The notes under the pieces are model-generated. The model did not search any database, was not told where the DNA came from, and worked only from the letters and a program-made list of their open reading frames with translations. This document shows positions 8,133 through 27,739 of a DNA stretch of 64,000 nucleotides, one piece after another. The position numbers and the translations under genes were made by a program. The DNA is taken from contig NZ_JAHHZF010000001.1 of the NCBI RefSeq assembly GCF_018729455.1, positions 316,902-380,901 on the forward strand, read 5' to 3'. The stretch comes from Prosthecodimorpha staleyi. Lineage in GTDB: Bacteria > Pseudomonadota > Alphaproteobacteria > Rhizobiales > Ancalomicrobiaceae. Position 1 is the stretch's first letter. Each line of letters opens with the position of its first letter.

Positions 8133-8274
8133 GAAAGTTCCTGTTTTCGGGCTCCTCCTGTCGCGCAATGCGGGCGGGGATGCAAGCGCGGACACATGTC
8201 CACAGCGGCGCAGGCCGCTCCGGGAGCCGAATTCCAACCCGTTCGGCGTTTCAACCGGGCTCCCGCGCCGCGCC

Positions 8275-8676
8275 TCAGGCGGACAGCAGCGCCCGCGTGG
8301 CGAGCAGCCCCGCCGCCAGCGCCGCGAAGGATACGACCACCGAGGCGGCGACATAGGCCAGTGCCGCCCCTTGCGCGCCGCGCTCCCACAGGATCCAGGC
8401 ATCGAGCGAAAAGGCCGAGAAGGTGGTGAATCCGCCGAGCATGCCGGTCATCAGAAACAGCCGCAACTCCGTGCCGCCGGCCTCCGGCGTCCAGCGCGCC
8501 AGGATCCAGGCGGCGAATATGCCCATCACCGCCGAACCGATCACGTTCACCGTGAAGGTCCCCCACGGATAATGCGGCCCGAAGCGGGCGACCAGGGCGA
8601 GATTCACGGCGTAGCGGAGGCCGGAGCCGAGGCCGCCGCCGACGAAGACCAGAGCGATATGCAGGAGTGGCGGCAT
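8275..8676 (-). CDS. crcB: Fluoride channel CrcB/Fluc
   Basis: 133 aa with four hydrophobic segments, the normal size for Fluc. The family signature GMLGGFTTFSAFSLD (about residues 80-94) holds the Phe and Ser/Thr residues that line the fluoride path. GGGLGSGLRY and GTFTVNVIGS are the other conserved blocks. It works as a dual-topology dimer that lets fluoride leave the cell. The ATG at 8676 gives MPPLLHIAL; 25 extra residues in the open frame are polar and unlike the family. It lies 142 bp upstream of rluC on the same strand. I looked for a fluoride riboswitch in the 190 bp upstream and did not recognise one. Confidence 0.93.
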   Translation of the reverse strand: MPPLLHIALVFVGGGLGSGLRYAVNLALVARFGPHYPWGTFTVNVIGSAVMGIFAAWILARWTPEAGGTELRLFLMTGMLGGFTTFSAFSLDAWILWERGAQGAALAYVAASVVVSFAALAAGLLATRALLSA

Positions 8677-12745: not shown

Positions 12746-12791
12746 GCACCGCATGGGAAGGCTCAGGGTCTTCCCCCGACACGATGTCCGT

Positions 12792-13172
12792 TCACTCGGC
12801 CGCGGAACTCTGCAAATCGGTGTTCGGCCAGATCGCCGCCACCGACGGCAAATGTGCCAGGCGCAAGATGTCCGGACCATTCGCATCCACGATGAAGCTG
12901 TTGGAGGACGCCAGAAAGCGCCCGGGGTCGCGGCCGAGCGCTTGCGTGATCTCTGCCGTGACGGCGGCGAGATCGACCGGTTCTGCAGCCCGGATGCCGA
13001 GGCTTCGGCGCCCCGGAAGACCGACCATGGCCGGGCGTGCATAAAGCGTCGGCCGCGGCGCCTCGATTTCCACGATCACGACGCGCCTCTCACCGCGCTC
13101 GGCTTCCGCGTCGCGCCGCAGATCGGCGGACCTGATCTTCTCCAGAGCAGCATCGACTAGGCCGGTCGTCAT
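12792..13172 (-). CDS. Small protein resembling a free-standing subtilisin propeptide (inhibitor I9-like)
   Basis: 126 aa, no signal peptide. The pattern is a beta strand (RRVVIVEIEAP, residues 29-39), a helix (VDLAAVTAEITQAL), a strand (NSFIVDANGPDILRLAHLP) and a final VAAIWPNTD. This matches the I9/propeptide layout, where the last strand normally reads V-x-x-V/I-x-P-N/D. It lies 172 bp downstream of a subtilase on the same strand. I infer that it may be a trans-acting foldase or inhibitor for that protease. The ATG at 13172 is preceded by AAAGGAG. This is a pattern-level call; a profile search is needed to confirm the family. Confidence 0.62.
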   Translation of the reverse strand: MTTGLVDAALEKIRSADLRRDAEAERGERRVVIVEIEAPRPTLYARPAMVGLPGRRSLGIRAAEPVDLAAVTAEITQALGRDPGRFLASSNSFIVDANGPDILRLAHLPSVAAIWPNTDLQSSAAE

Positions 13173-13344
13173 GTGCGTGCTCCTTTCGAACCGCAGCAGC
13201 ATCGGCTTGAATCCTTGATGAAGCACAGTAGGCCCGAATATGGGCGATGAACAGAAGGCGCCAACCGCACGCCGGGATTCGCTGAACGCAACCGGCGCCG
13301 CTCTGCCGGGTGGCAGGCGGCGGTGCTCCCCGAGGGTTACTTCG

Positions 13345-14997
13345 TCAGTAGCCGAGGTCTCGCGCAAAACCGACGGCGCGCAGGATGTCGACCCTTCCGA
13401 ATCCGAACCGGTGGTTCTGTCCCGCCTCGCCCAGTTCTTCTGCGGAGCCCGTCAGGAGATCTTGGAGAAGCAGGGCGCGCTCGGCCGGATCGACGCGATC
13501 ACGGATCGCCGTCGCGCTCAGCAGCAACGCGATAGCGCCCGCGACATGGGGGGCGGCCATCGAGGTCCCATTGAAATGCTCCCATTTGCCACCGGGAACC
13601 GAGGATTCGATCGCCACCCCAGGCGCCGAAATGTCAGGCTTGGAGTAGACCAGCGGCAAAAGGTCTTTCGAAAAGAAGGGCGACTGGCGGATGACCTGTG
13701 TCCGTCCGCCGGAAAAGCCAGCCGCCCGGTTGAGGAAATCGGTCGCTCCGACCGCAAAGGCCAGAATATCGTTGCCGGGCGATCCGCTGGTCTGACTGCC
13801 CTCGTTTCCGATTGCGGTGACCACCGGAATGCCGACCCGCAAGGCATTCATGATCGCGCTGGTATAGGTGCTCGGCACGTCCGGTCCCCACATCAGGCCC
13901 CCGAGCGACATGTTGATGACGTCGACCTTCTGGTTGATCGCCCATTCCATGCCGGCCAGGATCTGGGCGTGCGTTCCCCCACGCTCGCCGTTCAGGACCA
14001 AGGCGGCGGCAATCCGTGCTTCCGGCGCGACGCCGATCCAGCGCCCGTTGGCATTGCCGCCGACCATGATGCCCGCGCAGTGGGTACCGTGACGGTCGGA
14101 ATCATAGGGTTTGGACCCCGGAACCGGATCGCCGCGTTCGTCAAATTCCTCCCAGGCGTCGATCTTGCCGGCAAGATCGGGATGGGTCGGGTCGATCCCG
14201 GTGTCGAGCAACGCTATGCGGACGCCGGCGCCCCGGGCGTTGAAGGCGCCCCAGACGCCGAGGGCACCGATCGATCGGACGCCCCAGCCGCTCACCTTGT
14301 TGTCTTCGATCCAATGCGGGATCCGGTTCGGTGCCACGGCGGGAGGCAGCGTGACACGCCGGTTCGGGAAGACCGCCTCGATCTTCTCGGCCAGCGCATC
14401 GCTGTAGAGATTGGCCAGGTCCTTGCCTGCGACCCGCAGCAGGATGCTTCCGGAACTCCAGAATTCCCGCGGTCTGAAGGCGACGCCTTTCCGTCCGGCG
14501 CCCGCGCGCTTGGATGCCGTTGCGGCGGCCGCGGTCGCTCTCTGCGGCATGGCCTCCTGAAGAGCCGACGTGACCTGCTGAAGGGCCGCCATGCTTGTCT
14601 GCCGGAGCAAACTGATGATTGCGCCCATCGACTTGCCGGCCAACTCTTCTCCGTCGCCAGACCCCTTCGGAAGCCGATCGGCGCTACCCGACAGGCTCAG
14701 GTCGTTGACCGCCTGTGCGGCGGCGACAAAGCGCGACGAAGAGGCCACACCCTTTCTTTGCGACGACCGTACGACCGCAGCCTCGTCGACACGCTTCGAC
14801 GGCAGCACGTCGCGGGCCGACGTCGACATCGAGCGCTTCCGCAATGTGGTGGCGATGCTCCGCGAGAAGGCGTCCTCGGCATCGTTCTCCGTGCCTGCCT
14901 TGACGATGATCTCGTGAAAATCGGAAGGTTCCGTGTCCCGTATCGCCTCGACCTGCTCACGCAGACGCTTCAAGTGATCGGCTGAAACCTTCGCCAT
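13345..14997 (-). CDS. Subtilase (S8 family) serine protease without signal peptide
   Basis: 550 aa from the ATG at 14997, which follows AAGGGGGG. The N-terminal ~180 residues are polar, Ala/Ser-rich and unlike known domains. A short I9-like segment (GSILLRVAGKDLANL ... KIEAVFPNRRV) precedes the catalytic domain. Triad: Asp265 (ALLDTGIDPTHPDL), His303 (DRHGTHCAGI), Ser479 (NGTSMAAPHVAGA), with oxyanion Asn398 (AIGNEGS), so it should be active. No secretion signal is visible, which is unusual for S8. It may be cytosolic or leave by another route. The small I9-like gene follows it. Confidence 0.88.
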   Translation of the reverse strand: MAKVSADHLKRLREQVEAIRDTEPSDFHEIIVKAGTENDAEDAFSRSIATTLRKRSMSTSARDVLPSKRVDEAAVVRSSQRKGVASSSRFVAAAQAVNDLSLSGSADRLPKGSGDGEELAGKSMGAIISLLRQTSMAALQQVTSALQEAMPQRATAAAATASKRAGAGRKGVAFRPREFWSSGSILLRVAGKDLANLYSDALAEKIEAVFPNRRVTLPPAVAPNRIPHWIEDNKVSGWGVRSIGALGVWGAFNARGAGVRIALLDTGIDPTHPDLAGKIDAWEEFDERGDPVPGSKPYDSDRHGTHCAGIMVGGNANGRWIGVAPEARIAAALVLNGERGGTHAQILAGMEWAINQKVDVINMSLGGLMWGPDVPSTYTSAIMNALRVGIPVVTAIGNEGSQTSGSPGNDILAFAVGATDFLNRAAGFSGGRTQVIRQSPFFSKDLLPLVYSKPDISAPGVAIESSVPGGKWEHFNGTSMAAPHVAGAIALLLSATAIRDRVDPAERALLLQDLLTGSAEELGEAGQNHRFGFGRVDILRAVGFARDLGY

Positions 14998-15207
14998 CTC
15001 TGCCCCCCTTGGAAGCGGACGTCCGCGGCGAGGCTCCATCCCCGTCCTTTTCGTGCCTGGACGTTCCGCAACGAGAGGTAAGGTTATTTGCACCTATAAG
15101 CAGCGTCAACCGAAATTGCGCAACCGAGGATACGTAACTTCCTCGTCGCTTGGGTTCGACTGACGACGCGTCGGTCAGGCCCTCCGTTGATGGCCGCCGG
15201 CGCCCTC
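14998..15207. other. Intergenic stretch upstream of the subtilase
   Basis: About 210 bp between the subtilase start and the mttB-family stop, both on the minus strand. It is noticeably more AT-rich around 15070-15150 than the genes around it, as expected of a promoter region, but no clear -35/-10 pair was chosen. Confidence 0.3.
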
Positions 15208-16755
15208 TCAATGCGTCGCGTCGGGCATCGAGGCCTTGCGGCGGGCCATGAAGTCGTTCAGGGCTTCGTCGATGCCGGGGTCGATGTCGGGGGCGACGTA
15301 GTCGGCGAGCATCTTCTTCCAGAGGCCGTTGGCGCGCTGGGCGGCGTCCTTGGAGCCTTCGGCCATCCACTGCTCGACCGAATTGTTGTCGGCGACCGAG
15401 GAACGGTAGAAGGCGGTCTCGAAATTGGCCTGGGTGTGGCCGCAGCCGAGGAAATGGCCGCCGGGCGGCACCTCGCGGAAGGCCGCCATGCCCTGCCCGT
15501 TCTCCGACAGGTCGATGCCGCGCGCCAGCACATGCATCATGCCGAGCTGGTCGCAGTCCATGACGAATTTCTCGTAGGACGAGGCGAGCCCGCCCTCCAT
15601 CCAGCCGGCGGCATGGAGCACGAAATTGGCGCCGGCATGGACGGTCGGGATCAGCGTCTGGGCACTCTCGTAGGCCGCCTGGGCGTCCGGCACCTTGGAG
15701 GCGCAGAGCGAGCCGCCGGTGCGGAACGGCATCTTGTAGCGGCGGGCGAGCTGGGCGGCACCATAGATGGCGAGCGCGGCCTCCGGGGTGCCGAAGGTCG
15801 GCGCCCCGGACTGCATCGACAGGGTCGAGACGAAGGTGCCGAAGATGGCCGGCGCGCCGGGCCGAACCAGTTGCAGGAAGCTGACGCCCGCCAGCACCTC
15901 GGCCAGCACCTGGGTCAGCGTGCCGGCGACCGTCACCGGGCTCATGGCGCCCGACAGAATGAAGGGCGTGATGATGCACGCCTGATTATTGCGGGCATAG
16001 ACCTCGGCCGCGCCCAGCATGGTGGCGTCCCAGACCATCGGCGAATTGGCGTTGATGAGCGAGGTCACCACCGTGTTCGACTGGATGAAGTCCTTGCCGA
16101 ACAGGATCTCGGCCATCGAGACCGTGTCCTGCGCCCGGTCGGGATGCGTCACCGAGCCCATGAAGGGTTTGTCGGAAAAGCGCATGTGGGCATAGACCAT
16201 GTCCAGATGGCGCTTGTTGACTGGCAGGTCGACCGGCTCGCACACCGTGCCGCCGGAATGGTGCATGTAGGGGCTCTGGTAGGCGAGCTTCACGAAATTG
16301 CGGAAATCCTCGATCGTGCCGTAGCGCCGGCCCTGGTCGAGATCGTGCACGAAGGGCGAGCCGTAGACCGGCGCGAAGACCGTGTTGCGCCCGCCGATAT
16401 GCACGCTGCGCTCGGGATTGCGCGCATGCTGGACATAGTCGGAGGGCACGGTCGAGACGAGCTGCCGGGCGAGGCCGCGGGGGAAATGCACCCGCTCGCC
16501 GCGCACGTCGCAACCGGCCTGGCGCAGGCGCTCCAGCGCGCTCGGATAGTCGCGGAATTCGATGCCAATCTCCTCCATCAGGGTCTCAGCATTGTGCTCG
16601 ATGATCGACAGGCCCTCCTCGGAGAGCACCTCGGTGATCGGCAGGTTGCGGGTGATGTAGGGCACCGACACGGCGGACCGCGCAGACCGGGCGGCGCGAC
16701 GCGCCTCGCGGCCACGACGCTGTTCGCGGCCACCGGCTTCCGGCATGTCATTCAT
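15208..16755 (-). CDS. MttB-family methyltransferase, non-pyrrolysine type
   Basis: 515 aa. The family pattern is clear: HNAETLMEEIGIEFRDYP near the N-terminus, GTIEDFRNFVKLAYQSP, MRFSDKPFMGS, ANSPMVWDATMLGAAEVYA, SGAMSPVTVAGTL, APTFGTPEAAL, and the C-terminal HFLGCGHTQANFETAFYR. Members move a methyl group from a quaternary or tertiary amine to a corrinoid protein. No amber codon interrupts the frame, so this is the non-Pyl branch that includes glycine betaine methyltransferases. No corrinoid protein or MtbA-type partner is nearby, so the methyl acceptor is unclear. The ATG at 16755 follows GGGAGGG. Confidence 0.88.
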   Translation of the reverse strand: MNDMPEAGGREQRRGREARRAARSARSAVSVPYITRNLPITEVLSEEGLSIIEHNAETLMEEIGIEFRDYPSALERLRQAGCDVRGERVHFPRGLARQLVSTVPSDYVQHARNPERSVHIGGRNTVFAPVYGSPFVHDLDQGRRYGTIEDFRNFVKLAYQSPYMHHSGGTVCEPVDLPVNKRHLDMVYAHMRFSDKPFMGSVTHPDRAQDTVSMAEILFGKDFIQSNTVVTSLINANSPMVWDATMLGAAEVYARNNQACIITPFILSGAMSPVTVAGTLTQVLAEVLAGVSFLQLVRPGAPAIFGTFVSTLSMQSGAPTFGTPEAALAIYGAAQLARRYKMPFRTGGSLCASKVPDAQAAYESAQTLIPTVHAGANFVLHAAGWMEGGLASSYEKFVMDCDQLGMMHVLARGIDLSENGQGMAAFREVPPGGHFLGCGHTQANFETAFYRSSVADNNSVEQWMAEGSKDAAQRANGLWKKMLADYVAPDIDPGIDEALNDFMARRKASMPDATH

Positions 16756-17079
16756 CGTGAACCCTCCCAGGAACGGCCTTGGCCCGCCCGCTTGTCGCCC
16801 GAGCACGCCCCGTCGACATGGCGGACGAGGGCACTCCCTTTTCGTTCAGTCGGAAGCCCGGTCGCGCGATCGGCCGGATCGATCGATCCGATCGACCGGC
16901 CGGCGCGCGAGGCTTGCCGCGACCACGCCGTGCTGCGCGACGGCGCGACCGTCCCGGCGCGTCCCGGTAGGCCGGTCGCGCCGGAACGAGGTTAGGCCGT
17001 TGCAGGGGGCCGAGACTGTGCTGTGCCCGTCACCGGATGGCGCATGCGCGACAGGCTTTCCGCCGGCGGCAGGCCGCCG
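16756..17079. other. 324-bp gap with a 16-bp perfect palindrome
   Basis: No gene is supported. The central part is built from GATC/CGATCG-rich sequence including the palindrome at 16875-16890. The part nearest 16756 must contain the mttB-family promoter on the minus strand, and the part nearest 17079 the 3' end of the nrsF gene. Confidence 0.45.
16875..16890. promoter_or_regulatory. 16-bp perfect palindrome, possible operator
   Basis: CGGATCGATCGATCCG reads the same on both strands and sits in further CGATCG-rich sequence, about 120 bp upstream of the mttB-family start. A dimeric repressor site would look like this. GATC-rich palindromes also occur by chance in this composition, so the role is a guess. 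Confidence 0.35.
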
Positions 17080-17727
17080 TCACCAGCGCACGAGACGGGG
17101 CGCGAGCAGCGCGCCGAGGAGCCCGACGATCAGGATGGCGCCGGCATACCAGGCCGCCACGAAGGCCATCGCATCCTCGGTGCAGTGGACCGCATAGGCG
17201 ATCGCCGCGAGGCTGCCGGCGAAGAGGCCTGCGGCGAAGCCCGCCCCCCTCAGATCGGTCGGGGCGGAGCTGCGCAGGACCGCGACCAGCGCCCCGAAGG
17301 GCACGATCGCATAGAGCGGCAGATAGGTGAGGCAGAAGGTCCAGCTCGATCCGAAGACCAGCGCCGGCATGTCCTGCGGGCCGGCCATGCCGAGTTCGAT
17401 CGAGGCCAACACCGCGATGCCGGCGAAGGGCAGCGCCAGGAGGCCGATCAGGGGTTTCAGCGTCCGCCCCGGCCGGGCCAGGCGGACGAAAACCAGCGCC
17501 GCCGCCGCCGCCGCCGTCAGCACGAACAGGATCTTGGCCAGAACGCGGGGATCGCCCCAGGCCGTTGCCCAATCGCGGCGCATGCCGATGGTTTCGACCA
17601 CCATGAGAATTGCGGCGGCAAGTCCGAGCGTCGCGGCGACCAGCGTCGTGCGCAGGATGCGGTGAGCATCGACCGGCCGGGCATCGGCCGCCAATCGTGC
17701 GATCAGGTCCTCGGTCTGCAAAGCCAA
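17080..17727 (-). CDS. NrsF-family anti-sigma factor (DUF1109)
   Basis: About 215 aa. A short cytosolic N-terminus (LQTEDLIARLAADARPV) is followed by six hydrophobic segments, the layout of NrsF, the membrane protein that holds down SigF-type ECF factors in Caulobacter and relatives. Stretches such as LAAAILMVVETIGMRRDW, GSSWTFCLTYLPLYAIVP and AYAVHCTEDAMAFVAAWY fit the DUF1109 pattern with conserved Cys residues in membrane loops. No ATG or GTG is in place; TTG at 17727 or 17721 is the likely start, behind GGAG and GAGG. It lies 191 bp after the sigma gene, a longer gap than usual for this pair. Confidence 0.8.
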   Translation of the reverse strand: MALQTEDLIARLAADARPVDAHRILRTTLVAATLGLAAAILMVVETIGMRRDWATAWGDPRVLAKILFVLTAAAAAALVFVRLARPGRTLKPLIGLLALPFAGIAVLASIELGMAGPQDMPALVFGSSWTFCLTYLPLYAIVPFGALVAVLRSSAPTDLRGAGFAAGLFAGSLAAIAYAVHCTEDAMAFVAAWYAGAILIVGLLGALLAPRLVRW

Positions 17728-17747
17728 TGCCTCGTTCGCTCCATGAC

Positions 17748-17773
17748 GGCACCCGTCTCCGGCACCCGTCTCC
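17748..17773. repeat. 13-bp tandem duplication between the sigma and nrsF genes
   Basis: GGCACCCGTCTCC occurs twice in a row (17748-17760 and 17761-17773). It lies just before the nrsF translation start and lengthens the gap after the sigma gene. It is probably a replication-slippage duplication. Confidence 0.7.
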
Positions 17774-17918
17774 GGCGCACGCGCCACCCGATCCCGCCTG
17801 GAGCGATTCCGAGCCGGCACCGTACGCACCGGCCGCTCCGGGTGGACCGTTGCGACCCGGCCACCCGAAGCGGCCGTCGCGCCGCCCGACAGGGAATACG
17901 GGCGTCGCAACCGAACGG

Positions 17919-18479
17919 TTACGCCACCCCGTTGCCGGAACCGAAGATCCGGCTGAGCCGCTTCATGCCGCGATGGATCGCAACCTTCAGCGCCGTTTCC
18001 GACATGCCGGCCGTCCGGGCCGCCTCGGCGATGGATCGTCCCTCCAGCTTGACGGCCGCAAACGGACTGCGCAAAGCCGGCGGGAGCCGGTCGAGCACGC
18101 GCGCCACGTCCCAAACCGCATCGGCGGCCTCCTCGGGCGCCGGCAGGAGGTCCTCCAGATCGTCGATCGGCAGGCTCGAGCCGGTCCGCGCCCGGGCGCG
18201 CAGATGGTCGATCACCTTGTGGCGGGCGATGGCATGAACCCAGGCACCGACAGGATAGGCCGCGTCGTAGGTGTGCCGGCGGGTATGAACCGCGATCAGC
18301 ACATCCTGCACGATATCCTCCGCGTCGGCAGTGTTGCCGGCGCGCGCCCGCGACAGGAGCCGGCCGACATGACCGCGCACCAGCCGCGCTATGGCATCCA
18401 GCAAGGAACGATAGGCGGCTTCGTCACCCGCCATGCTCCGCAGCATCAGATCTTTCAGTTGGCTTTCCGGGATGGACAT
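17919..18479 (-). CDS. ECF RNA polymerase sigma factor, NrsF-linked (SigF-like)
   Basis: 186 aa with only sigma regions 2 and 4. Region 2 is AEDIVQDVLIAVHTRRHTYD...GAWVHAIARHKVIDHLRAR. Region 4 is LPPALRSPFAAVKLEGRSIAEAARTAGMSETALKVAIHRGMKRL, with the helix-turn-helix near the end. The ATG at 18479 follows GGGGGAG. The membrane anti-sigma NrsF follows on the same strand, so the pair should answer a membrane-sensed, likely redox or metal stress. Its targets are unknown. The kinase/SPFH/protease genes just upstream on the same strand are possible clients, but no matching promoter was identified. Confidence 0.9.
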   Translation of the reverse strand: MSIPESQLKDLMLRSMAGDEAAYRSLLDAIARLVRGHVGRLLSRARAGNTADAEDIVQDVLIAVHTRRHTYDAAYPVGAWVHAIARHKVIDHLRARARTGSSLPIDDLEDLLPAPEEAADAVWDVARVLDRLPPALRSPFAAVKLEGRSIAEAARTAGMSETALKVAIHRGMKRLSRIFGSGNGVA

Positions 18480-18657
18480 CCGGGCGGCTCCCCCAGGCCG
18501 AGAATACGGCATCAGAGTGCCACGGGATCGAATGCAAAGCCGCTGAACTCTTCTGACCGGAGATGAATTGCGCGTGAACGACCGCGCGACCCGTGGTCGA
18601 CGCGGAGGAGCCCGCGTCCGGACGCCCCGCATGTCCCACCCAAAGGCTCCCGGGCAG

Positions 18658-19677
18658 TCAGAGCTGGAAGTTGTCCTTGATCCGGCGCACGGCATCGCGC
18701 ACGTCCCGGCCGATCTCCGCGCGCAGCCGGTCACGCATCTCTGTGATGCCGGGACCGGTCGCCGCGGCCGCACCATGGGCCGGCGGCGGCGCCAGATGGA
18801 AGCTCGGATTGCGGTCGAGATGGCCGACGATCCAGCTGTCGGCCAGAAATCCCTGCTGCTCGGCGAGCCGGATCGGCATCTCGGCATAGCCGCCCTGACC
18901 CCATTTCGCGCCCCAGCTGTTGCGGATCAGGAAGGTGCCACGGTTGCGGTCGTAGCCGACGATCAGCATGCAATGGCCGCTCTCGGCCGTCGACGGGTCC
19001 AGATTCTCGTCGCCGCGCGGGTCCGGGAAGCGCCCGGTGCGTGCCGCCTCCTCGTAGCAACGCTGCGGCAGGTTGATGGCGAGCGATACCGGCAGGCCCT
19101 GGGCGAGCGCTCCGATGACGCCGTCGGGGCCGACCACCCGGGCGAAGTCGTGGCCCTGGGCGGTCCAGGCCGAATCGTAAACCCGGCGCGGCGGCTCGCG
19201 GTTGAAATCCTCGATCCGGTACGGCCATTCCTGTTCGGGCGGCACCCCGAAGGCGACCACGGAGGCGATCACCTCGGCGGTGGTGTTGCCGCTGTCCTCG
19301 CCGACGGCATTGCGCAGCTTGCGCGCGTTGAAATAGACGAACAGCCGGCTGCGATCGACCGGCGGCTTGCCCTGCTTGATCTGCAGAAACTCCAGCGCGC
19401 CGACCACCGCACAGGAGGCGCAACTGCCGAGCGATTGCTGATCCTCGACAGGCGAACAAAAGGGGCGCAGGTCGACCGTCGGCGGCGCATTGCCGGCGAC
19501 CGCGACCGCCACGGGCGTATCGCGCGGCGGCGCCTTGGCGGCGATCAGGCCGTCGGTACGCCGGGCGCGGGACTGGCGGGGACCGAGACCGGCGACGCGC
19601 CACAATGCGGCGGCGCAGTGCGGGCAGGCCTCCGGCGTCGGATCAGGCAGGACCGTGAAGCATTCCGGACACAGCAT
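18658..19677 (-). CDS. Papain-like (C1) cysteine protease with N-terminal zinc ribbon
   Basis: 339 aa. Residues 1-21 form a zinc ribbon (Cys3, Cys6, Cys18, Cys21: CPEC ... CPHC). The C1 peptidase domain spans about 65-290 with the full catalytic set: oxyanion Gln80 and nucleophile Cys86 (QSLGSCASCAVV), His235 (SGHCMLIVGYD) and Asn253 (IRNSWGAKWGQGGYAEM). A basic/acidic C-terminal helix (MRDRLRAEIGRDVRDAVRRI) follows. There is no signal peptide, so it is a cytosolic papain-like protease, which is uncommon in bacteria. It ends the minus-strand set of membrane protein, SPFH protein and kinase, and starts 93 bp after the kinase stop with GGGAGG before the ATG. It could cleave kinase or SPFH partners, or effectors. 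Confidence 0.88.
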   Translation of the reverse strand: MLCPECFTVLPDPTPEACPHCAAALWRVAGLGPRQSRARRTDGLIAAKAPPRDTPVAVAVAGNAPPTVDLRPFCSPVEDQQSLGSCASCAVVGALEFLQIKQGKPPVDRSRLFVYFNARKLRNAVGEDSGNTTAEVIASVVAFGVPPEQEWPYRIEDFNREPPRRVYDSAWTAQGHDFARVVGPDGVIGALAQGLPVSLAINLPQRCYEEAARTGRFPDPRGDENLDPSTAESGHCMLIVGYDRNRGTFLIRNSWGAKWGQGGYAEMPIRLAEQQGFLADSWIVGHLDRNPSFHLAPPPAHGAAAATGPGITEMRDRLRAEIGRDVRDAVRRIKDNFQL

Positions 19678-19770
19678 ATAAGCCTCCCCGCGCCGGCCTC
19701 GGCCGACACTTGTGACTGTTGGCGCCGGAAAGCCTCCCGGCGCGATGGGACGGCGGGACCGGGGCGGTCG

Positions 19771-22380
19771 TCAGCCGCCGGTGCGGCGGCCGTGGCCGAC
19801 ATCACCGGCAATCTCCTTGGCAAGCCCGCCCAGCGTGTAGCGGTAGGCGACGAAGGTGCCGATACCGACGAACATCGACAGGCCGCCGGCAAGCTCCTCG
19901 GCGGCGGTCTCCCCGACCAACATGGCCGCGAACGCATAGGCGATGAAGAAGACCAGGAACACGTTGGCGGCGATGAAGCCGATATTCGAGCCGGCCTTGA
20001 ACCCGACCGCCACATCGACCCGTGCGCGGTCGGCAGCCATCGGGCTCAGCGTCGCCTCGCCGGTAAAGGTCACCGGCAGCATCGAGGTGCGCTTCAGGTC
20101 GGACCGCTTGGCGGTGAACTGGACGCGGCGGCCCGCATCGAGCTCGGAGACCACAGCCCCGCCGGCCCGGGCGATCCGATCGCGCAGCACGCCGCTCGGA
20201 TCCACCCCGCCGAGCGCGAGTTCGCCCGTCCAGCCGTTGCCGGCCGGCGGCCCGATCGACACCACGCTGACGGTGCCGCTGCCCGACGATCCGCCGCCCA
20301 GGGGTCCGCCGCCGTGCTGGAAGACGGGGTCGGGCTTGAATTCCGGCTTCGGATCGGGCTTCGCGACCGGATCGAGCCGCGGCGGCACGGGATCGACTAC
20401 CGGCTTGCGCTGCGGCTCGGGCGCCGGCGCGCTTGCCAGGGCGGCGGCGAATTCGGCCGCCGTCTGGAAGCGGTTGTCCTCGCGCTGCTGCACCGCCTTG
20501 CCGACGACCTTGTCGAGATAGGCCGGCACGTCGCGGCGCTGTTCGCTCGGCTGGCCGAGCGCGCCGTGGGCGGGCAGCCCGCGCAGCAGGAGTTCGTAGA
20601 GCAGGATGCCGACCGAGTAGAGATCCGCCTCCGGCCCGATCACGTCGGCGCCGGCCTGCTGCTCGGGCGCCCAGTAGCGCGGCGTGCCGGTCGCCCCGCT
20701 CGCCCGCATGGTCGCCATGGACATCGGCCCGGCCGCCTTGGCGATGCCGAAATCCAGGATCCGCGTCTCGACCGCCCCGCTGCCGAAGACATCGCCCTCG
20801 ACAAAGATGTTCTCCGGCTTGATATCGCGATGCACCAGCCCCTGCCGGTGGGCCTCGCCGAGGCCTTCCAGCACGCCGGCCACGATGCGCATCACCGCCG
20901 GCACGGGGATGTCGCGCCGGGTCTGCTTGGCGACATTGAGGACATCGCGCAGCGAACTGCCTTCGAGCAGTTCCATGGTCAGGTAGGGCTGGTCGCCGGC
21001 CACGGCCACGTCGTAGATCGAGACCACGTTACGGTGCCGGATGCGGCGGGCGCGGCGGCCTTCGTCGACCAGCCGCTTGAGCGCGTCGTCGGACTGCATC
21101 AGGTCGCGGCGGACCAGCTTCAGCGCCATCTCGTCCTGGGACTGCACGTCGCGGACGGCATAGACCTGCCCCATGCCGCCCTCGCCGAGCTTGCGCAGGA
21201 TCTCGTAGCGCCCCGCGAAGACGCCGCCCTCGGCGAGGTCCGGCCGCTTGTCGCGCAGGTCGGTCGTGCGCACCATCTCGATCCGGTCGACCCGGCCGCG
21301 GCCGGGCACGAAGGTGACGGCGATCTCGGCCGAGCGGACCTCGTCGGGCAGCAGCGCGATGCGGTTCGACGGACCGAGCGCGAAGCGTTCGTCGCGCGCC
21401 AGCCGTCGTCCGTCGACCGCGACGCCGCCCTGGATCAGGTTGACCAGCACCAGCCGGTCGTTCTCGATCTGCAGGCGGAAGCGCGGGCCGGCGAGCCGCG
21501 CCATGGCGGCCGCATCCGACTGCCCGTCCGCGCCTTCGACCGGCAGCGGCAGGTCCGGCGCCGGCTGGCCTTCGATCGGATTGCCGACCGTGATCCGCCC
21601 GAGCGCGGCGAGCCGTCCGGCCGCGAGCGGCGCCTTGACGCCGGTCAGCACCAGTTCGACATCGCGCGGCACCTCCAGATTGCCCTGGTCGGCGAGACCG
21701 CGCAGGCCGGCCTGGCGCTCGTGGCGCTCGGCACGCTGCAGATCGATGATCGCGGCTTCCGCGGCGCGGCCCTCCTCGGCCGGCCGGCCGCCCAGGAAGG
21801 GCGCGATGTTGATCAGCTGGCCCTGGCCGATCGAGGCGCCGGACAGGTCGACATGGAACTGGATCGCCTGCTCGTTCGACGGTGCGATCTCGACGAACAC
21901 CGTGCCCTCATAGGCATAGGTCTCGGTGACCGACCCGCACGGCACCTCGACCACCAGCCGCAGCCCGACCGCATATTTGCCGCTCGATTCGAACGGACCC
22001 GCCTGGACGACGATCTGCCGTCCCTTGCCCTCGCCGGTCTCGACCCGTTCGAACGGCACCGGCACCGGCTGGTAGGGACCGTTGCCCTCGCGCTTCTCGA
22101 AACTGACCAGCCGGAAGCTGCGCTGCGCCAGCGGCGAGCGGTTGGCGATCACGAAGGGCAGCGCCAGCGTGTCGCCACGCCGCATCGAGCCGATCGGCTC
22201 GACGGCGAGAAGCGGTGCCGGCGCGCAGACCGGACAGGCCCGGTCGGGTTCGATCAGCTGGTTGCAGCTGTCGACGCCGGTGCAGCGCAGGAGCGGGTTG
22301 CCGCATTCCGCGCAGGCCATCGCGCTCGGCAGCGCCTGGAGCGTCTCGGAACAGCAGGTGCGATAGGGATGCCACGCCAT
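19771..22380 (-). CDS. Ser/Thr protein kinase with N-terminal zinc ribbons and C-terminal membrane segments
   Basis: 869 aa. The N-terminus has paired zinc-binding cysteines (Cys23, 26, 33, 39, 49, 52). A beta-rich region of about 240 residues follows, ending in an FHA-like stretch (FRLQIENDRLVLVNL, about 301-345). A Hanks-type kinase domain spans about 391-650: glycine loop LGEGGMGQVY, Lys421, HRDIKPEN (Asp519), DFG (543-545) and WAPEQQ. A Pro/Lys-rich linker (650-690) leads to a beta-rich module and two hydrophobic helices (about 803-822 and 832-849). All catalytic residues are present. The start lies 4 bp after the SPFH stop, with GGGAG inside the SPFH end, so the two are translationally coupled. 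The target is unknown. Confidence 0.9.
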   Translation of the reverse strand: MAWHPYRTCCSETLQALPSAMACAECGNPLLRCTGVDSCNQLIEPDRACPVCAPAPLLAVEPIGSMRRGDTLALPFVIANRSPLAQRSFRLVSFEKREGNGPYQPVPVPFERVETGEGKGRQIVVQAGPFESSGKYAVGLRLVVEVPCGSVTETYAYEGTVFVEIAPSNEQAIQFHVDLSGASIGQGQLINIAPFLGGRPAEEGRAAEAAIIDLQRAERHERQAGLRGLADQGNLEVPRDVELVLTGVKAPLAAGRLAALGRITVGNPIEGQPAPDLPLPVEGADGQSDAAAMARLAGPRFRLQIENDRLVLVNLIQGGVAVDGRRLARDERFALGPSNRIALLPDEVRSAEIAVTFVPGRGRVDRIEMVRTTDLRDKRPDLAEGGVFAGRYEILRKLGEGGMGQVYAVRDVQSQDEMALKLVRRDLMQSDDALKRLVDEGRRARRIRHRNVVSIYDVAVAGDQPYLTMELLEGSSLRDVLNVAKQTRRDIPVPAVMRIVAGVLEGLGEAHRQGLVHRDIKPENIFVEGDVFGSGAVETRILDFGIAKAAGPMSMATMRASGATGTPRYWAPEQQAGADVIGPEADLYSVGILLYELLLRGLPAHGALGQPSEQRRDVPAYLDKVVGKAVQQREDNRFQTAAEFAAALASAPAPEPQRKPVVDPVPPRLDPVAKPDPKPEFKPDPVFQHGGGPLGGGSSGSGTVSVVSIGPPAGNGWTGELALGGVDPSGVLRDRIARAGGAVVSELDAGRRVQFTAKRSDLKRTSMLPVTFTGEATLSPMAADRARVDVAVGFKAGSNIGFIAANVFLVFFIAYAFAAMLVGETAAEELAGGLSMFVGIGTFVAYRYTLGGLAKEIAGDVGHGRRTGG

Positions 22381-22384
22381 GCGA

Positions 22385-24100
22385 TCAGGCTCCCAGCGGC
22401 TGGCGGCAATGGACGCAGTTCGGACCGCGCGCGAGCGTCTGCTGGTGGCAGTGCGGGCACTCGATCAGGCTCGGCGGCGGCGCAAAGCCGGAAATCGCCT
22501 GGCCGACGCCCTGGGCGGTGCCGGCGGCGGTCATCGCGATGGTGTTCTGCGCGGTCCGCGCATCCTCGCGGGTGGCGGCGATCTGGTCGCGCAGCGCCTG
22601 GGTCAGGGCCTGGTCGCGCTGCGCGACCGCGTTGGCCTCGGCGGTCAGCACCTGGGCGGCGCCCTGATTGTCGAGCTTGCGCGCCTTCATCTGCTCGGCC
22701 GTCAGCGTGCCCTCGGCGGCGATCAGGCTGGCGGTGTGGCGGGCCGCCGCCTCGGCCTCGCGGATGCGCCGCTCGGCCGAGGAGTCATCGCGGAAGCGCT
22801 CGTTGTCGATCTGGAAGCGCGCATTGGCGGCGTTGAGGTCGTTGAGGTCGCGCAGCCGGGCATGCTGCGCCTCGACATCGCGGATCTCGGTCAGCCGCGC
22901 CGTCTCGCGCAGGTCGGCCTCCAGGCGGGCCTGCTCGCGCCGGCGCTGGTTCTGGATCGAGACCAGCGCGCTCTGATGCTCCTCGCCCTTGAGCGCCTCC
23001 AGCCGGTCCATCTCGGCCAATTCGCCATTGACCCGGCGCTGCGCGATCATGGCGCGGCTGTTGGCGAGCTGGTTGGCCTGGTCGATCTCGGCGCGAATCT
23101 GGCTGCGCCGCGCCTCCTCGATGCCGACATCGATGCCGGCCAGACGCACCTCGCCCTCGCGCAGGGTGCGCGCCTTTTGCTGGTCGATGGCGGCGAGTTC
23201 CTCCTCGAACCGCGCCTGGCGCCGGGCAACCACCTTGGCGATCTCGCCCATCAGGGCGTTCATCTCGGCCGACCGGATGCCGGATTCGCGCGCCTCCTCG
23301 AACTGCAGCTCGTTGGAGAGCACCAGCCGGCGCAGCTCCGCCTCGTCGATCACACGGGTGCGGTCGGCCGCCGTCGCGAGGTTGATCTTCAGGACGGTCG
23401 TATCGGATTCGCGCTTCAGTTGGCTGGTCAGGAGCTCGTGCTCCTGCTTCAGCCGCTGGTCCTCGGCCGCCCTGCGGCGCGCCTCGATTTCGGCGAGCTC
23501 GACCTCGTTCATGGTCCAGGTCGCCGAGACCGCCCGCACCGTCAGGCCGATCTCGCCGGCGACGCGCTCGGCCTCGGCCATGATCCGCGCCTGGATGCGG
23601 TCCTGCAGGCCGACATTGCCGCGGATGTCGACGGCGCCGAGCCGGCCGATCTCGGCCTCGATCACCCGGTCCTTCAGATGGGCCATCAGCCGCGCGGTCA
23701 CGTCGGTCTTCAGGACCGCGCGATGCTCGGCCATGAAGCCGAGGATGTTGGCGGCGCGCTCCGGATCGACCTGGAACTCGAAGGTGAGTTCGCCGCCGAC
23801 CGGCACCCGGTCGGCCGTCAGCGCCGTGACCTGCTCGACCAGCCGGAACGGCTTCAGGTCGGCGACCAGCAGGCGCAGCGAATGCTGCCCGCCGATGGCG
23901 TCCTTCAGCCCCTGCCAGAAGCCGCCGACCGAGACATGCGCGCCGGCCTCGACGCCGACCACCCGGCCGTCGCGGATCAGGATCGCGGCGAGGTCGGGGC
24001 CGACCGCCAGCCGCGTCTCGGCGAAGCCGCGGAATTCGTTGAGGCCGACATATTCGGCAAGAAGCTGGTCACTGGAGAGGGTCAGCACGGAGGACGACAT
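22385..24100 (-). CDS. SPFH/band-7-like protein with long coiled coil and C-terminal zinc ribbon
   Basis: 571 aa. The first ~200 residues look like an SPFH/prohibitin-type domain, with VGVEAGAHVSVGG, VPVGGELTFEFQVDPERA and GEIGLTVRAVSATW. About 300 residues of charged Glu/Arg/Ala-rich sequence follow, predicted as coiled coil. The last 29 residues hold a zinc ribbon (CPHC ... CVHC). There is no clear membrane anchor at the N-terminus. Proteins of this build oligomerise at membranes or into shells; a comparable family is annotated as 'virion core protein' in some databases. The ATG at 24100 follows GAGG. The gene is coupled to the kinase downstream (4-bp gap), which suggests it is the scaffold or main substrate. 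Confidence 0.8.
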   Translation of the reverse strand: MSSSVLTLSSDQLLAEYVGLNEFRGFAETRLAVGPDLAAILIRDGRVVGVEAGAHVSVGGFWQGLKDAIGGQHSLRLLVADLKPFRLVEQVTALTADRVPVGGELTFEFQVDPERAANILGFMAEHRAVLKTDVTARLMAHLKDRVIEAEIGRLGAVDIRGNVGLQDRIQARIMAEAERVAGEIGLTVRAVSATWTMNEVELAEIEARRRAAEDQRLKQEHELLTSQLKRESDTTVLKINLATAADRTRVIDEAELRRLVLSNELQFEEARESGIRSAEMNALMGEIAKVVARRQARFEEELAAIDQQKARTLREGEVRLAGIDVGIEEARRSQIRAEIDQANQLANSRAMIAQRRVNGELAEMDRLEALKGEEHQSALVSIQNQRRREQARLEADLRETARLTEIRDVEAQHARLRDLNDLNAANARFQIDNERFRDDSSAERRIREAEAAARHTASLIAAEGTLTAEQMKARKLDNQGAAQVLTAEANAVAQRDQALTQALRDQIAATREDARTAQNTIAMTAAGTAQGVGQAISGFAPPPSLIECPHCHQQTLARGPNCVHCRQPLGA

Positions 24101-24148
24101 GGGGGCCTCGTTGGCACGGCGAACCGGGACGGGATCGGCAGGCGGGCG

Positions 24149-24766
24149 TCAGGCCCGTTCGCCGCGGCGGGCGGCTGCGATCATGTTGGCGATGATCACG
24201 GCGACCGCGACGGCGACGCCGATCTTGTGCTGCGCGAGGGCGGCCAGGATACCGTCCAGCCCGCCAACCGCCTTGGCGGCCTCCTCAGCCTGCCGGCCGG
24301 CGCCGACCGCCTGGAAGACGACCGCGATCAGCGACGTACCGGCCGCGACCAGCGCGGACATCCGCGACCAGAAGCAGAGCCGGGCATAGGGCGACGGCGC
24401 AAGCACGGAACCGCCGGCCGCGGCGAGCCCGCCCTCGGGGGAAGCCGGAGCGCCGGCCCTCGCTGCCGCCTCGGCGGCCGCCCGGCGATCGGCGTTGCCG
24501 CCGCGGGTGAAGTCGGGTTGCAGCGCCGCCCCGGCCGTTTCCGCCCGGGTCAGGTTGTAGGCGCGCCGGTGCATGGCGGCGAGCACCGCCCCGACCAGCC
24601 ACAGCCCGCCGAGGGCCAGCGTCGCGCCGAACAGAATGCCGGCGGTCCGCTCGAAGTCGAAACCAGAAAGCACGCGATCTCTCCATGGTCGGAACGGCGG
24701 CGGCGCCTGGGCCGCTGCTGCCCCGGTTGGCCGAACTCCGGCCCGGGTCTTCAGGATCGTCGCCAT
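24149..24766 (-). CDS. Small membrane protein leading the SPFH/kinase/protease set
   Basis: 205 aa with three hydrophobic segments: about residues 41-65 (FGATLALGGLWLVGAVLA), 135-157 (SALVAAGTSLIAVVFQAVG) and 181-199 (IGVAVAVAVIIANMIAAA). The intervening loop is Ala/Gly-rich and charged. I do not recognise a family. It is followed after 48 bp by the SPFH gene on the same strand, so it is probably the membrane anchor or sensor of that set. The ATG at 24766 has only a weak ribosome binding site; later starts before the first segment are possible. Confidence 0.68.
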   Translation of the reverse strand: MATILKTRAGVRPTGAAAAQAPPPFRPWRDRVLSGFDFERTAGILFGATLALGGLWLVGAVLAAMHRRAYNLTRAETAGAALQPDFTRGGNADRRAAAEAAARAGAPASPEGGLAAAGGSVLAPSPYARLCFWSRMSALVAAGTSLIAVVFQAVGAGRQAEEAAKAVGGLDGILAALAQHKIGVAVAVAVIIANMIAAARRGERA

Positions 24767-25641
24767 CCGGGTCGCCCGTGCCGTTTCGGCATCGTCCGCG
24801 GTCGGTCCGAAATCCCACCGCGTCTGCGACCGTTTGTTATCCGTTCATTTCCGGAGTTAACCGCAGCCGCCCGCAAAGCGTCAATCGCGCTGCCGCCTCG
24901 CGCCCCGACAACTCAATTGAGGCCCGCCTGCGCCCCGCCTCGCCGCCTCGGGCCGCTCACCGCCTGCCGTCGACATCCACGAGAACACCGAGCCCCGCCC
25001 GCACGCCCCCCTTCCCCTTCGTCCCTAAGGCGGGAGAAGGAAATCAACACGTTGGGAGATCGCGGACACGACCGCCCCCGATCCCGCGGCTCTTTCCCCT
25101 TCTCCCCCCAAGGGGGGGAGAAGGTCGCCGAAGGCGGGATGAGGGGGTCGATACCGCAACAGGCTCGAAGCTGCGGTCCGGACACGGGCCGATCCGGCGG
25201 GCCGCCAGACCGTCCCCCTCATCCGCCCTTCGGGCACCTTCTCCCCCCACAGGGGGAGAAGGGAATCAACACGTTGGGAGATCGCGGACCTGAACACCCC
25301 CGATCCCGCGGCTCCTTCCCCTTCTCCCCCTAAGGGGGGAGAAGGTCGCCGAAGGCGGGATGAGGGGGTCGATGCCGCAAGAGGCTCGAAGCCCGCGGTC
25401 CGGACACGGGCCGATCCGGGGGGCCGCCAGACCGTCCCCCTCATCCGCCCTTCGGGCACCTTCTCCCCCCACAGGGGGAGAAGGGAATCAACACGTTGAA
25501 AGATCGCGGACGTGAACACCCCCGACCCCGCGGCTCCTTCCTCTTCGCCCCCGGGCAGGAAAAATGGCCCCGATGCACCGGGGCGACGGGACGTCCCGAG
25601 GGGCCGACGACCCCGGCTCGGCGGGATCGTCGAACGGAGCC
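24767..25641. other. Gene-free stretch mostly made of tandem palindromic repeats
   Basis: The first ~270 bp (24767-25041) hold the presumed minus-strand promoter of the SPFH/kinase set, with an AT-richer patch near 24830-24860, and C-rich simple sequence. The rest is the 222-bp repeat field (25042-25553). Several open frames cross the repeats only because they lack stops; none has a start context or a domain. About 90 bp remain before the glyoxalase-like stop at 25642. Confidence 0.7.
25042..25553. repeat. Tandem 222-bp palindrome-rich repeat, 2.3 copies
   Basis: Units start at 25042, 25264 and 25486 (partial), each with AATCAACACGTTG at the same place. Inside each unit are strong inverted repeats: CTTCTCCCCC with GGGGGAGAAGG, and CCGCCCTTCGGGC flanked by CCCCTCATC. 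This pairing of a CCTTCTCCCC hairpin and a CCCCTCATCCG hairpin is the intergenic palindromic element well known in Rhizobiales. A long tandem array of it is less usual. Copies differ by only a few bases, so the amplification is recent. Diverged pieces in the other orientation occur at 27798-27925. Confidence 0.85.
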
Positions 25642-26082
25642 TCACCAGACGCCGGTATTCTTCATGCTCGACCAGGGTTCGGCCGGTGCGAGGGCAGAGC
25701 CCTTCTGCAGGAGTTCGATCGAGATCAGGTCGGGCGAGCGGACGAAGGCCATCCGGCCGTCGCGCGGCGGGCGGTTGATGGTCACGCCCGCATCCATCAA
25801 TTTGGCGCAGGTGGCGTAGATGTCGTCGACCTCGTAGGCGAGATGGCCGAAGTTCCGCGCCGTGCCATAGTCCTCCGGATCCCAGTTGTAGGTCAGTTCG
25901 ACCAGCGGGGCCTTGTCGGCGCGGGCAGCGGCCTCGTCTTCGGAGGCCGCGAGGAAGACGAGGGTGTAGCGGCCGGGTTCGTTGTCGATGCGGCGGGTCT
26001 CGATCAGACCCATCTTGTTGACCCAGAAGTCGAGCGATTCCTCCAGATTGCGGACGCGAACCATCGTGTGCAGATATCGCAT
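25642..26082 (-). CDS. Glyoxalase I-type VOC protein (lactoylglutathione lyase)
   Basis: 146 aa. Two beta-alpha-beta-beta-beta halves with the metal ligands of glyoxalase I: His5 (YLHTMVRV), Glu in [10 protein letters not shown], His in [11 protein letters not shown] and Glu in [17 protein letters not shown] and YTLVFLA also match GloA. It turns the methylglyoxal-glutathione adduct into S-lactoylglutathione in the cytosol. AGGAG precedes the ATG at 26082. It is divergent from the sirtuin gene, with 41 bp between them that must hold both leaders. Confidence 0.9.
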
Positions 26083-26123
26083 GGGGGTCTCCTGACCGTG
26101 AAGCGACGCAAGGGCGTGGAGCC

Positions 26124-26906
26124 ATGAATATCGTGTCGGATCTCGCCGAGGGAAGGCGCATTCTCGCCGAGGCGATCGGCGCGGCGAAGCGGCTGGTGCT
26201 GTTCACCGGAGCCGGCGTCTCGACGGAATCCGGAATCCCGGACTTCCGTTCTCCCGGCGGGCTGTGGTCGCGGATGCGTCCGATCACGTTCCAGGACTTC
26301 GTCGCCTCGGAGGCGGCCCGGCTGGAAGATTGGCGGCGACGGTTCCACCTGATGGCCGAATTCGAGGCGGCAATTCCCAATGCGGGTCATCGCGCCATGG
26401 CTCGGCTGGTCGGCAGCGGCAAGGCGATCGCGCTGATCACGCAGAATATCGACGGCCTGCACGAACGGTCCGGGGTGCCGGAGGACCGCCTGATCCGCCT
26501 GCACGGCACCGGCACCCATGCATCCTGCCTCGACTGCCACGAGCGCATGGAGATCGCGGAGGCCGAGGCGGCGATCGCGGCGACCGGGCAGTCGCCACGC
26601 TGTCCAGCCTGCGGCGGTCTGATCAAATGCGCGGTGGTCAGCTTCGGCCAGGCGATGCCGGAAGCCGAGATGACCAGGGCGGAAGCGGCCAGCCGCGCCG
26701 CCGATCTGTTCGTCGCTGCCGGCTCGTCGCTGCAGGTCCATCCGGCGGCGGGGCTTCCGGTCGCGGCCCGGCGCGCGGGGGCGCGGTTGTTGATCGTCAA
26801 TCGTGACGAAACGGCGCTCGACAGTCTCGCCGACCGCGTCCTGCGCGGCCCGATCGGACGCCTGTTCGACCCCTCCGACGATGCCGGCAGGGACGGCGCG
26901 CCGTGA
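26124..26906 (+). CDS. Sir2-family NAD-dependent protein deacylase (CobB-like)
   Basis: 260 aa. The NAD-binding [23 protein letters not shown] and the catalytic His in [10 protein letters not shown] are intact. The zinc site is CLDC (with HASCLDC) and [12 protein letters not shown] and [12 protein letters not shown] complete the fold. It removes acyl groups from protein lysines using NAD. This is a stand-alone sirtuin of normal length. The neighbours are not defence genes, so a role in Sir2-type phage defence is not suggested. GGAG lies 5 bp before the ATG. Confidence 0.93.
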
Positions 26907-27160
26907 GACGACCGATGCTGCAGTGCAGTCCCTGCCGATACGGAGCCGGCGGCCAAAATCCTGTCAATGGCACGAAGCCTTGGAAGCGTGTCTCCGCGGT
27001 ATCAATTGTGGCGAAATCGGGCACAACATCATCGAAACCGGTAGTCGGGCTCGGACTGGGTGATATTGTTTCGTTAAGAATCAGTGCGGGGCTCCAGCTT
27101 CGCGAATCGTAAGCGGGCCGGTATGCTCCGGCCATGTATTTGCCTCGGGGGTGGTTAGGT

Positions 27161-27739
27161 ATGGGGGCCAAGATTACGCCGGACGCCCGCCCTATTGAAG
27201 CGCTGGACGACAGTCAGGCCGTCGACGTGATCGAAGTGGCCGGATCGATCAAGTGGTTCGACGTGGCCAAGGGCTACGGGTTCATTCTTCCCGACAACGG
27301 CCTGCCGGACATCCTCCTGCATGTGACCTGCCTCCGCCGCGACGGCTTCCAGACCGCCTATGAAGGCGCCCGTGTCGTCGTCGAAGTGCTCGACCGCCCG
27401 CGCGGCCTGCAGGCCCTGCGCATCCTGCACATGGACGAATCGACGGCCGTCCACCCGTCGCAGCTGCCGCCCAGCCGAACCCACGTCCAGGTCGTGCCGA
27501 CCAGCGGCATGGAGCGGGCGGTGGTCAAATGGTTCAACCGCATCAAGGGCTTCGGCTTCCTGACCTGCGGCGACGGCACGCCGGACATCTTCATCCATAT
27601 GGAAACCCTGCGCCGGTTTGGCATTGCCGAACTGCGCCCCGGCCAGACCGTTCTGGTCCGGTTCGGCGACGGCCCGAAGGGCCGCATGGCCGCCGAGATC
27701 CGCCCCGACGGTCCAAGCCATATCCCCGCCTCGCACTGA
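27161..27739 (+). CDS. Dual cold-shock-domain protein (CspA family, two CSDs)
   Basis: 192 aa from the ATG at 27161; an ATG at 27134 would add nine residues but lacks a good ribosome binding site. Two cold-shock domains are seen. The first (about 27-95) has KWFDVAKGYGFI and DILLHVTCLRR; the second (about 118-185) has KWFNRIKGFGFL and DIFIHMETLRR. These are the RNP1 and RNP2 nucleic-acid binding motifs. A Pro/Ser linker separates them. Such two-domain proteins are typical of Rhizobiales and act as RNA chaperones. The 254 bp upstream is AT-richer than the surroundings and probably includes the promoter. Confidence 0.9.
   Translation: MGAKITPDARPIEALDDSQAVDVIEVAGSIKWFDVAKGYGFILPDNGLPDILLHVTCLRRDGFQTAYEGARVVVEVLDRPRGLQALRILHMDESTAVHPSQLPPSRTHVQVVPTSGMERAVVKWFNRIKGFGFLTCGDGTPDIFIHMETLRRFGIAELRPGQTVLVRFGDGPKGRMAAEIRPDGPSHIPASH

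Follow-up and report, generated by a model that had tools for sequence, protein, structure and literature searches.

The window analysed here is a stretch of 64,000 nucleotides from the alphaproteobacterium Prosthecodimorpha staleyi (contig NZ_JAHHZF010000001.1, positions 316,902 to 380,901), and the subject is a cassette of four minus-strand genes within it (18658-24766) that encodes five modules: a membrane protein with three transmembrane (TM) segments, an SPFH protein, an adaptor with a Cys-rich, an Ig-like and an FHA region, a Ser/Thr kinase and a papain-like protease. The cassette is rare, co-inherited and real, and the occurrence of its genes as neighbours in distant taxa points to a possible device at the cell membrane that would pass a signal from kinase to protease. 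The explanation that we prefer, with confidence slightly short of even, is a relay of membrane kinase and FHA adaptor, seated on an SPFH scaffold, that would control the cytosolic papain protease. An earlier reading made from the letters alone (the sequence-only reading) had described four genes in one direction with gaps of 48, 4 and 93 bp, which the coordinates of the open reading frames (ORFs) bear out; the Cys-rich/Ig-like/FHA region of the kinase protein had escaped it, as had the zinc ribbons that SPFH protein and protease carry. The parts of the cassette, with lengths in amino acids (aa), are as follows.

24149-24766, minus strand: module 1, membrane protein with three TM segments, 205 aa
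22385-24100, minus strand: module 2, protein with SPFH domain, coiled coil and C-terminal zinc ribbon, 571 aa, without TM segment
23501-24031, minus strand: SPFH domain of module 2, approximately residues 24-200 (AlphaFold model and fold matches)
22517-23506, minus strand: long helical / coiled-coil region of module 2, residues 199-528 (AlphaFold model)
22406-22459, minus strand: C-terminal zinc ribbon of module 2, C548, C551, C562 and C565 (alignment)
19771-22380, minus strand: modules 3 and 4 fused, Cys-rich/Ig-like/FHA adaptor, Ser/Thr kinase and C-terminal TM segment, 869 aa
22225-22356, minus strand: N-terminal eight-Cys region of the fused protein, C9, C10, C23, C26, C33, C39, C49 and C52 (alignment)
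21877-22227, minus strand: Ig/ApaG/Spo0M-like beta-sandwich of the fused protein, residues 52-168
21286-21663, minus strand: FHA-fold domain of the fused protein, residues 240-365 (alignment and fold match)
20551-21207, minus strand: Hanks-type domain of the kinase, residues 392-610; Lys, HRD and DFG present (Pfam and alignment)
19918-19974, minus strand: C-terminal TM segment of the kinase, residues 803-821 (hydropathy)
18658-19677, minus strand: module 5, cytosolic C1 protease of papain type, 339 aa; N-terminal CxxC..CxxC, basic tail at the C-terminus

A single-protein search detected the SPFH protein in one of the two same-genus genomes examined besides the window's own. A relative with 40% identity was found in genome G633, with the same genes in the same order and with adaptor and kinase as two genes. 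The SPFH profile matched 17 of 200 genomes of the order of G633, 16 of them at full score; the seventeenth match (G910, E 9.5e-4) was short and weak. All five modules were present in every one of the 16 loci (L007 and 15 others) of this sample. A scan with the SPFH profile of one genome per species (84,980 genomes) yielded 31 loci, some of them from the same genomes as the 16-locus set; it undercounts, because two short peptide patterns were used. All five modules occur in 26 of the 31 loci and in 25 of these 26 they lie on one strand in the order three-TM protein, SPFH protein, adaptor, kinase, protease. The adaptor gene of locus L080 is 3.9 kb away, and contig ends cut four loci (L059, L066, L078 and L086). 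Locus L075, from a metagenome-assembled genome (MAG) of the Pirellulaceae, keeps the SPFH protein, adaptor and kinase and has a short three-TM ORF but no protease, for which the rest of that genome gave one weak 26-bit match only. Apart from P. hirschii, identities to the window are 16-28% for the three-TM protein, 31-39% for the SPFH protein, 25-30% for the adaptor, 30-39% for the kinase and 30-38% for the protease. The neighbourhood in distant taxa that the sequence-only reading had named as support was thus observed at roughly 16-39% identity.

The adaptor profile matched 16 genomes of the 200-genome sample, exactly those 16 with a full-scoring SPFH protein. The protease profile matched 28 genomes, but the 19 matches above 380 bits were confined to the 16 SPFH-bearing genomes and the others did not exceed 162 bits. 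Because the genes are neighbours in distant taxa, and because adaptor and cassette-type protease occur in these 200 genomes only where the SPFH protein does, we regard the cassette as one functional unit. The pairwise distances of the five modules correlate across 27 sets (r 0.77-0.94), with a Mantel p of 0.001 in all ten comparisons; this is the floor for 999 permutations, and common species history contributes to such a mirror-tree correlation.

Among the 384 class genomes searched, the window's own was the one with the cassette once two matches to the zinc-ribbon region only had been dropped; this search was of limited sensitivity, with at most three first-look candidates scored per genome. 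The cassette was likewise found in one of 148 genomes of the class of L075, L075 itself, after the removal of 11 short matches to the zinc-ribbon region. The weak SPFH matches in G783, G781, G910, G113, G395 and these 11 genomes were not counted as cassette members because only short coiled-coil or zinc-ribbon stretches align. L067 clusters inside Hyphomonas, and the phylum labels of the MAGs behind L059, L061 and L067 may be wrong; the flanks of L075 are presumably planctomycete, judging by eye. The SPFH protein had no match in 72,556 plasmid records (tblastn) and no relative in a scan of viral contigs. A plasmid-borne cassette traced through the kinase was rejected as well: 645 plasmid records match, and among the 40 listed none covers 80% of the protein. 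The protease query matched one viral contig (L006), which carries a papain homologue at 4959-5699 with 41% identity, adjoining apparent phage structural genes (by eye), and the other cassette modules are absent from the 10.7 kb examined.

The TM segments of the three-TM protein lie at residues 44-62, 138-156 and 181-199 by hydropathy, in agreement with the sequence-only reading; among four homologues tested, three also show three segments, and that of L061 shows two at the threshold. The loop between TM1 and TM2 is positively charged, carries a conserved NLT...PDF stretch (alignment of 15 sequences) and is presumably cytosolic. Upstream of the gene, a TTGACG-N18-TTAACT block (window approximately 24850-24885, minus strand) is conserved with P. 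hirschii and resembles a sigma-70 promoter, not one of extracytoplasmic function (ECF) type (both by eye).

The SPFH protein of the window has no TM segment by hydropathy and no Pfam match at E<=0.1, Band_7 included; Band_7 matched one of 18 aligned family members (E 5e-4). The PF13421 (Band_7_1) model, which we take to be that of the YdjI family, had no match in the window's genome, while the control rang in B. subtilis, and a search of the PDB sequences with the SPFH profile gave weak zinc-ribbon matches only. The AlphaFold model (mean predicted local distance difference test score, pLDDT, 72.6; predicted template modelling score, pTM, 0.37) matches prohibitin, stomatin, HflK/C, flotillin and vault proteins (61 matches at E<=0.001). 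The predicted SPFH fold followed by a helical region assigns the protein to the SPFH superfamily, and the SPFH-type domain with coiled coil seen at first inspection is upheld by model and fold matches. The zinc-ribbon residues C548, C551, C562 and C565 are invariant in all 18 aligned SPFH proteins, and Pfam DZR was matched at E<=0.1 by 15 of the 18, the window protein not among them. The pattern CxxC-x(6-20)-CxxC occurs in 31/31 SPFH proteins, 25/30 kinases, 8/28 proteases and 0/31 adaptors.

The fused protein matches Pfam Pkinase (E 8.5e-41), and Lys, HRD and DFG are kept in 31 of 31 kinase sequences, by which the window kinase is classed from its sequence as a Hanks-type Ser/Thr kinase. The sequence-only reading had given it several C-terminal membrane segments; the kinase stands, with one clear C-terminal TM segment by hydropathy. 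A single C-terminal TM segment was also found in all nine relatives tested, seven of which have a long tail beyond it. The L058 kinase (12860-14773) has such a tail, rhodanese-like by eye.

The adaptor is a separate gene in all 29 relatives outside Prosthecomicrobium and is fused to the kinase in the window and P. hirschii. Its eight Cys are invariant in 18 of 18 aligned sequences, two of which match Pfam zinc ribbons; the region is likely a zinc ribbon, possibly two, because its own eight-Cys arrangement is invariant even though no adaptor has the CxxC-x(6-20)-CxxC pattern. The adaptor region of the window protein also has a predicted FHA fold. In FHA domains phosphothreonine (pThr) is bound by Gly-Arg and Ser-Arg-x-His residues. 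All 29 split adaptors retain Gly-Arg and Ser-Arg, and 28 retain the His, that of L080 being the exception. The fused FHA domains of the window and P. hirschii have lost the binding residues; the window has GN and AGPRF in place of GR and SRxHF.

A conserved Thr motif, often (M/L)xT(V/I/L)GGLETxD, is present in many split kinases, in the linker that joins zinc ribbon and kinase domain and that varies elsewhere; it was found by seeking a Thr with the same split-versus-fused pattern as the FHA residues. The strict pattern occurs in 19 of 29 split kinases, compared with a mean of 0.08 and a maximum of 2 over 1000 shuffles of the linkers, a test that overstates the significance because the pattern was derived from the same, mutually related sequences. 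Elsewhere in the cassette it was found in 0/31 SPFH proteins, 0/31 adaptors, 0/28 proteases and 0/31 three-TM proteins. The linker is absent from the fused proteins of the window and P. hirschii. These sequence patterns, with linker and FHA binding residues lost together upon fusion, suggest that in Prosthecomicrobium gene fusion took the place of pThr docking; the simplest reading would be that the adaptor docks on autophosphorylated linker Thr and that fusion made docking unnecessary. A second Thr lost only in fused loci lies just after the kinase APE motif (A576 in the window); it is present in 86% of split loci, with Asp at the +3 position in 17 of 28, and is a lead only.

The protease matches Pfam Peptidase_C1 (E 1.8e-12). 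The papain residues (Q80, C86, H235 and N253 in the window) are kept in 32 of 32 sequences, the window included, and no TM segment was detected in the window protease by hydropathy, so the cytosolic C1 protease with four catalytic residues recognized earlier is confirmed as a member of papain family C1 with predicted catalytic activity. The closest solved relative is 3ois (profile E 4.1e-57), which we take to be xylellain. Between the window and P. hirschii, dN/dS is 0.36 for the three-TM protein, 0.14 for the SPFH protein, 0.18 for the kinase and 0.06 for the protease. Some cassette proteases end in GPGAGGGY tails repeated several times (L044, 5505-6566; L085, 14350-15534), and seven cassettes have two papain-protease copies (L044, L045, L046, L060, L070, L077 and L087), the second copy of L060 being on the opposite strand.

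The preferred explanation builds on the observed gene set, its order and co-inheritance, the predicted folds, the catalytic residues, and the linker motif with its loss together with the FHA binding residues. Complex formation, autophosphorylation, docking, the role of the protease as effector, and a signal and a substrate are what we infer from these. The SPFH protein, having no membrane segment of its own, would be brought to the inner membrane by the three-TM protein and form a ring or cage there. The membrane-tethered kinase would sense a signal, in many relatives probably via the tail beyond its TM segment, and autophosphorylate on Thr of the linker that connects its zinc ribbon with its kinase domain. 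On this linker pThr the Cys-rich/Ig-like/FHA adaptor would dock, a step for which the covalent fusion would substitute in Prosthecomicrobium. The complex may be held together by zinc ribbons, which are found on the SPFH protein, on most kinases, on some proteases and probably on the adaptor; as output, the cytosolic papain protease would be released or activated locally. The sequence-only reading had the kinase phosphorylate the SPFH scaffold, with the protease as output and membrane stress, differentiation or defence as possible roles: the single functional unit and the scaffold with a membrane partner fit the present data, but the arrow from kinase to SPFH protein and the protease output are hypothetical, and the sequence evidence would favour autophosphorylation on a linker motif read by the FHA adaptor over SPFH phosphorylation.

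The single parts are of known kinds: Hanks kinase-FHA signalling, zinc-ribbon SPFH scaffolds and papain proteases. Actinobacterial Ser/Thr kinase-FHA modules include PknB-GarA and Rv1747; what sets the cassette adaptor apart is a Cys-rich region at the N-terminus, an Ig-like domain and the tie to an SPFH protein and a papain protease. From 3ois (labelled 'Cysteine protease') the cassette enzyme differs by its gene context, a kinase/SPFH set, and by its basic C-terminal tail. The HflK/C-FtsH and prohibitin assemblies share with the cassette an SPFH fold followed by a long helix and the linkage of SPFH protein and protease; in contrast to these assemblies, the cassette SPFH protein has no TM segment, the protease is cytosolic and papain-like instead of a membrane AAA+ enzyme, and a kinase and an FHA domain are present. 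As in B. subtilis pspA-ydjGHI, a soluble SPFH protein with a C-terminal zinc ribbon is encoded beside membrane protein(s), and zinc ribbons are there also found on another member (YdjG). Passages of PMC8581546 and PMC11237479 (the latter writes YdjL) describe YdjI as an SPFH protein with a C-terminal zinc ribbon that is recruited to the membrane by partner proteins, and those of PMC8581546 state that this soluble protein needs the membrane partners YdjG/H. The cassette differs from pspA-ydjGHI in that no PspA was seen among eight window proteins scanned (no genome-wide PspA search was made), that its SPFH protein has no PF13421 match, and that kinase, FHA adaptor and papain protease are added.

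Of the alternatives, an envelope quality-control complex is unlikely but the best sustained: the SPFH cage would house or regulate a constitutive papain protease acting on membrane or misfolded proteins, and the kinase would only tune it, with no phospho-relay. The SPFH-protease pairing does recur, the fold matches listed include HflK/C-FtsH structures, and the protease, which has no TM segment, shows the strongest constraint among the four genes (dN/dS 0.059). However, L075 keeps SPFH protein, adaptor and kinase without the protease, a full kinase and FHA reader exceed the needs of a tuner, and a distribution as rare and patchy as one in 384 class genomes (the window's own) does not favour it.

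The same rarity and patchiness, with conservation over deep divergence and copies in MAGs labelled as other phyla, would suit an anti-phage or abortive-infection system in which kinase sensing triggers a suicidal or phage-directed protease, a reading that we consider rather improbable. A kinase is indeed paired with a protease, a caspase-family gene adjoins the L063 cassette, and 33 PADLOC families match the kinase protein; but the 25 of these 33 matches that were listed fall within residues 380-790, for the most part in the generic kinase domain, and the other three window proteins had no match in this library of 2023, whose scope excludes later systems. The flanks of ten loci look like ordinary chromosomal genes (by eye, few scanned), the window holds no tRNA (no search was aimed at integrases), and the SPFH query is without relatives in viral contigs or plasmids. 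Zinc-ribbon kinases are mentioned in other conflict systems in passages of PMC7159879.

A transcriptional envelope-stress role is less probable still. Here the Hyphomonas-type cassette would feed a phosphorylation-activated ECF sigma factor via an adjacent TPR kinase, and in the window the neighbouring ECF/NrsF genes would take that role. Beside Hyphomonas-type cassettes, including those of Parvularculaceae and Pontixanthobacter, an ECF gene occurs in 18 of the 31 loci, a kinase-TPR gene in 17 and a gene for a small four-TM protein, without Pfam match at E<=0.01, in 13. The genes concerned are the following.

8841-9410 of L007 (equivalents in other loci): ECF sigma factor
16021-18519 of L007 (equivalents in other loci): kinase-TPR protein
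19258-19704 of L007 (equivalents in other loci): small four-TM protein
17919-18479 of the window, minus strand: ECF sigma factor with canonical DAED, neighbour, probably outside the cassette (Pfam and alignment)
17080-17790 of the window, minus strand: NrsF-type anti-sigma factor, neighbour, probably outside the cassette, ORF start approximate (E 2.3e-58)

In all 15 aligned locus ECFs of the 16-locus set DAED is absent and S/A-T/S-G/S-D stands instead; with a kinase gene nearby, these ECFs are of ECF43 type by sequence. Passages of a review (PMC8999054) report that an ECF43 of Hyphomonas neptunium is activated by a Ser/Thr kinase, its identity with the locus ECF being unverified, and the loci resemble the EcfP/PknT (ECF43) pair described there in combining an ECF without DAED and a kinase. 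Unlike EcfP/PknT, the ECF/kinase pair is merely accessory in some relatives. The ECF, TPR-kinase and four-TM companions are absent from the window, and the ECF/TPR pair was not found in the 10-kb flanks of the Acetobacteraceae, Gemmatimonadaceae, Neomegalonema and planctomycete loci. The window ECF itself has DAED and an adjacent NrsF and is thus not of ECF43 type. The congener G002, in whose genome the SPFH protein had no match, retains ECF and NrsF together with the gene that follows (presumably MttB), at 58, 54 and 90% identity; because this trio is kept without the SPFH protein, ECF and NrsF were judged to be resident neighbours and rejected as part of the cassette.

That the genes are chance neighbours with unrelated roles has next to no probability, for although each domain family is generally known to be common by itself, the modules co-occur and are co-distributed with correlated distances, and the presence of all five in 26 of 31 loci refutes chance adjacency.

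Further genes were noted around the cassettes. At 25208-25551 and 25642-27739 of the window, short intergenic repeats flank a glyoxalase / SIR2-like / cold-shock-like block (the last two named by eye), whose orientation relative to the cassette is opposite in P. hirschii, a local inversion. A subtilase gene (Peptidase_S8, E 4e-54) lies near the cassette at 13345-15093 (minus strand), its mycosin-like similarity being below the cut-off. The L063 cassette (12765-18631) has two kinases, and its caspase-family gene (Peptidase_C14, E 3.7e-18) lies right after the papain protease. In L058 an Hsp70 gene (6678-8387, E 2e-136) is located divergently upstream of the cassette.

Among the literature matches listed (full text; subscription papers and preprints lie outside them), there is no report of the combination of SPFH protein, kinase, FHA domain and papain protease. 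That the relay is a bacterial phospho-relay ending in regulated proteolysis, in which membrane kinase, FHA/Cys-rich reader and SPFH cage gate the papain protease, is a possibility that we put forward with considerable doubt. If true, kinase and cysteine protease would be joined in one pathway at a membrane microdomain, of a kind not seen for bacteria among those matches. The idea of pThr docking is directly testable because evolution made both split and fused versions, and the fused lineage would be a natural experiment in which pThr docking was swapped for gene fusion. The functions of bacterial SPFH scaffolds are mostly unclear; if the proposed relay is correct, these scaffolds would gain a defined kinase input and a protease output, in a compact cassette of culturable Hyphomonas.
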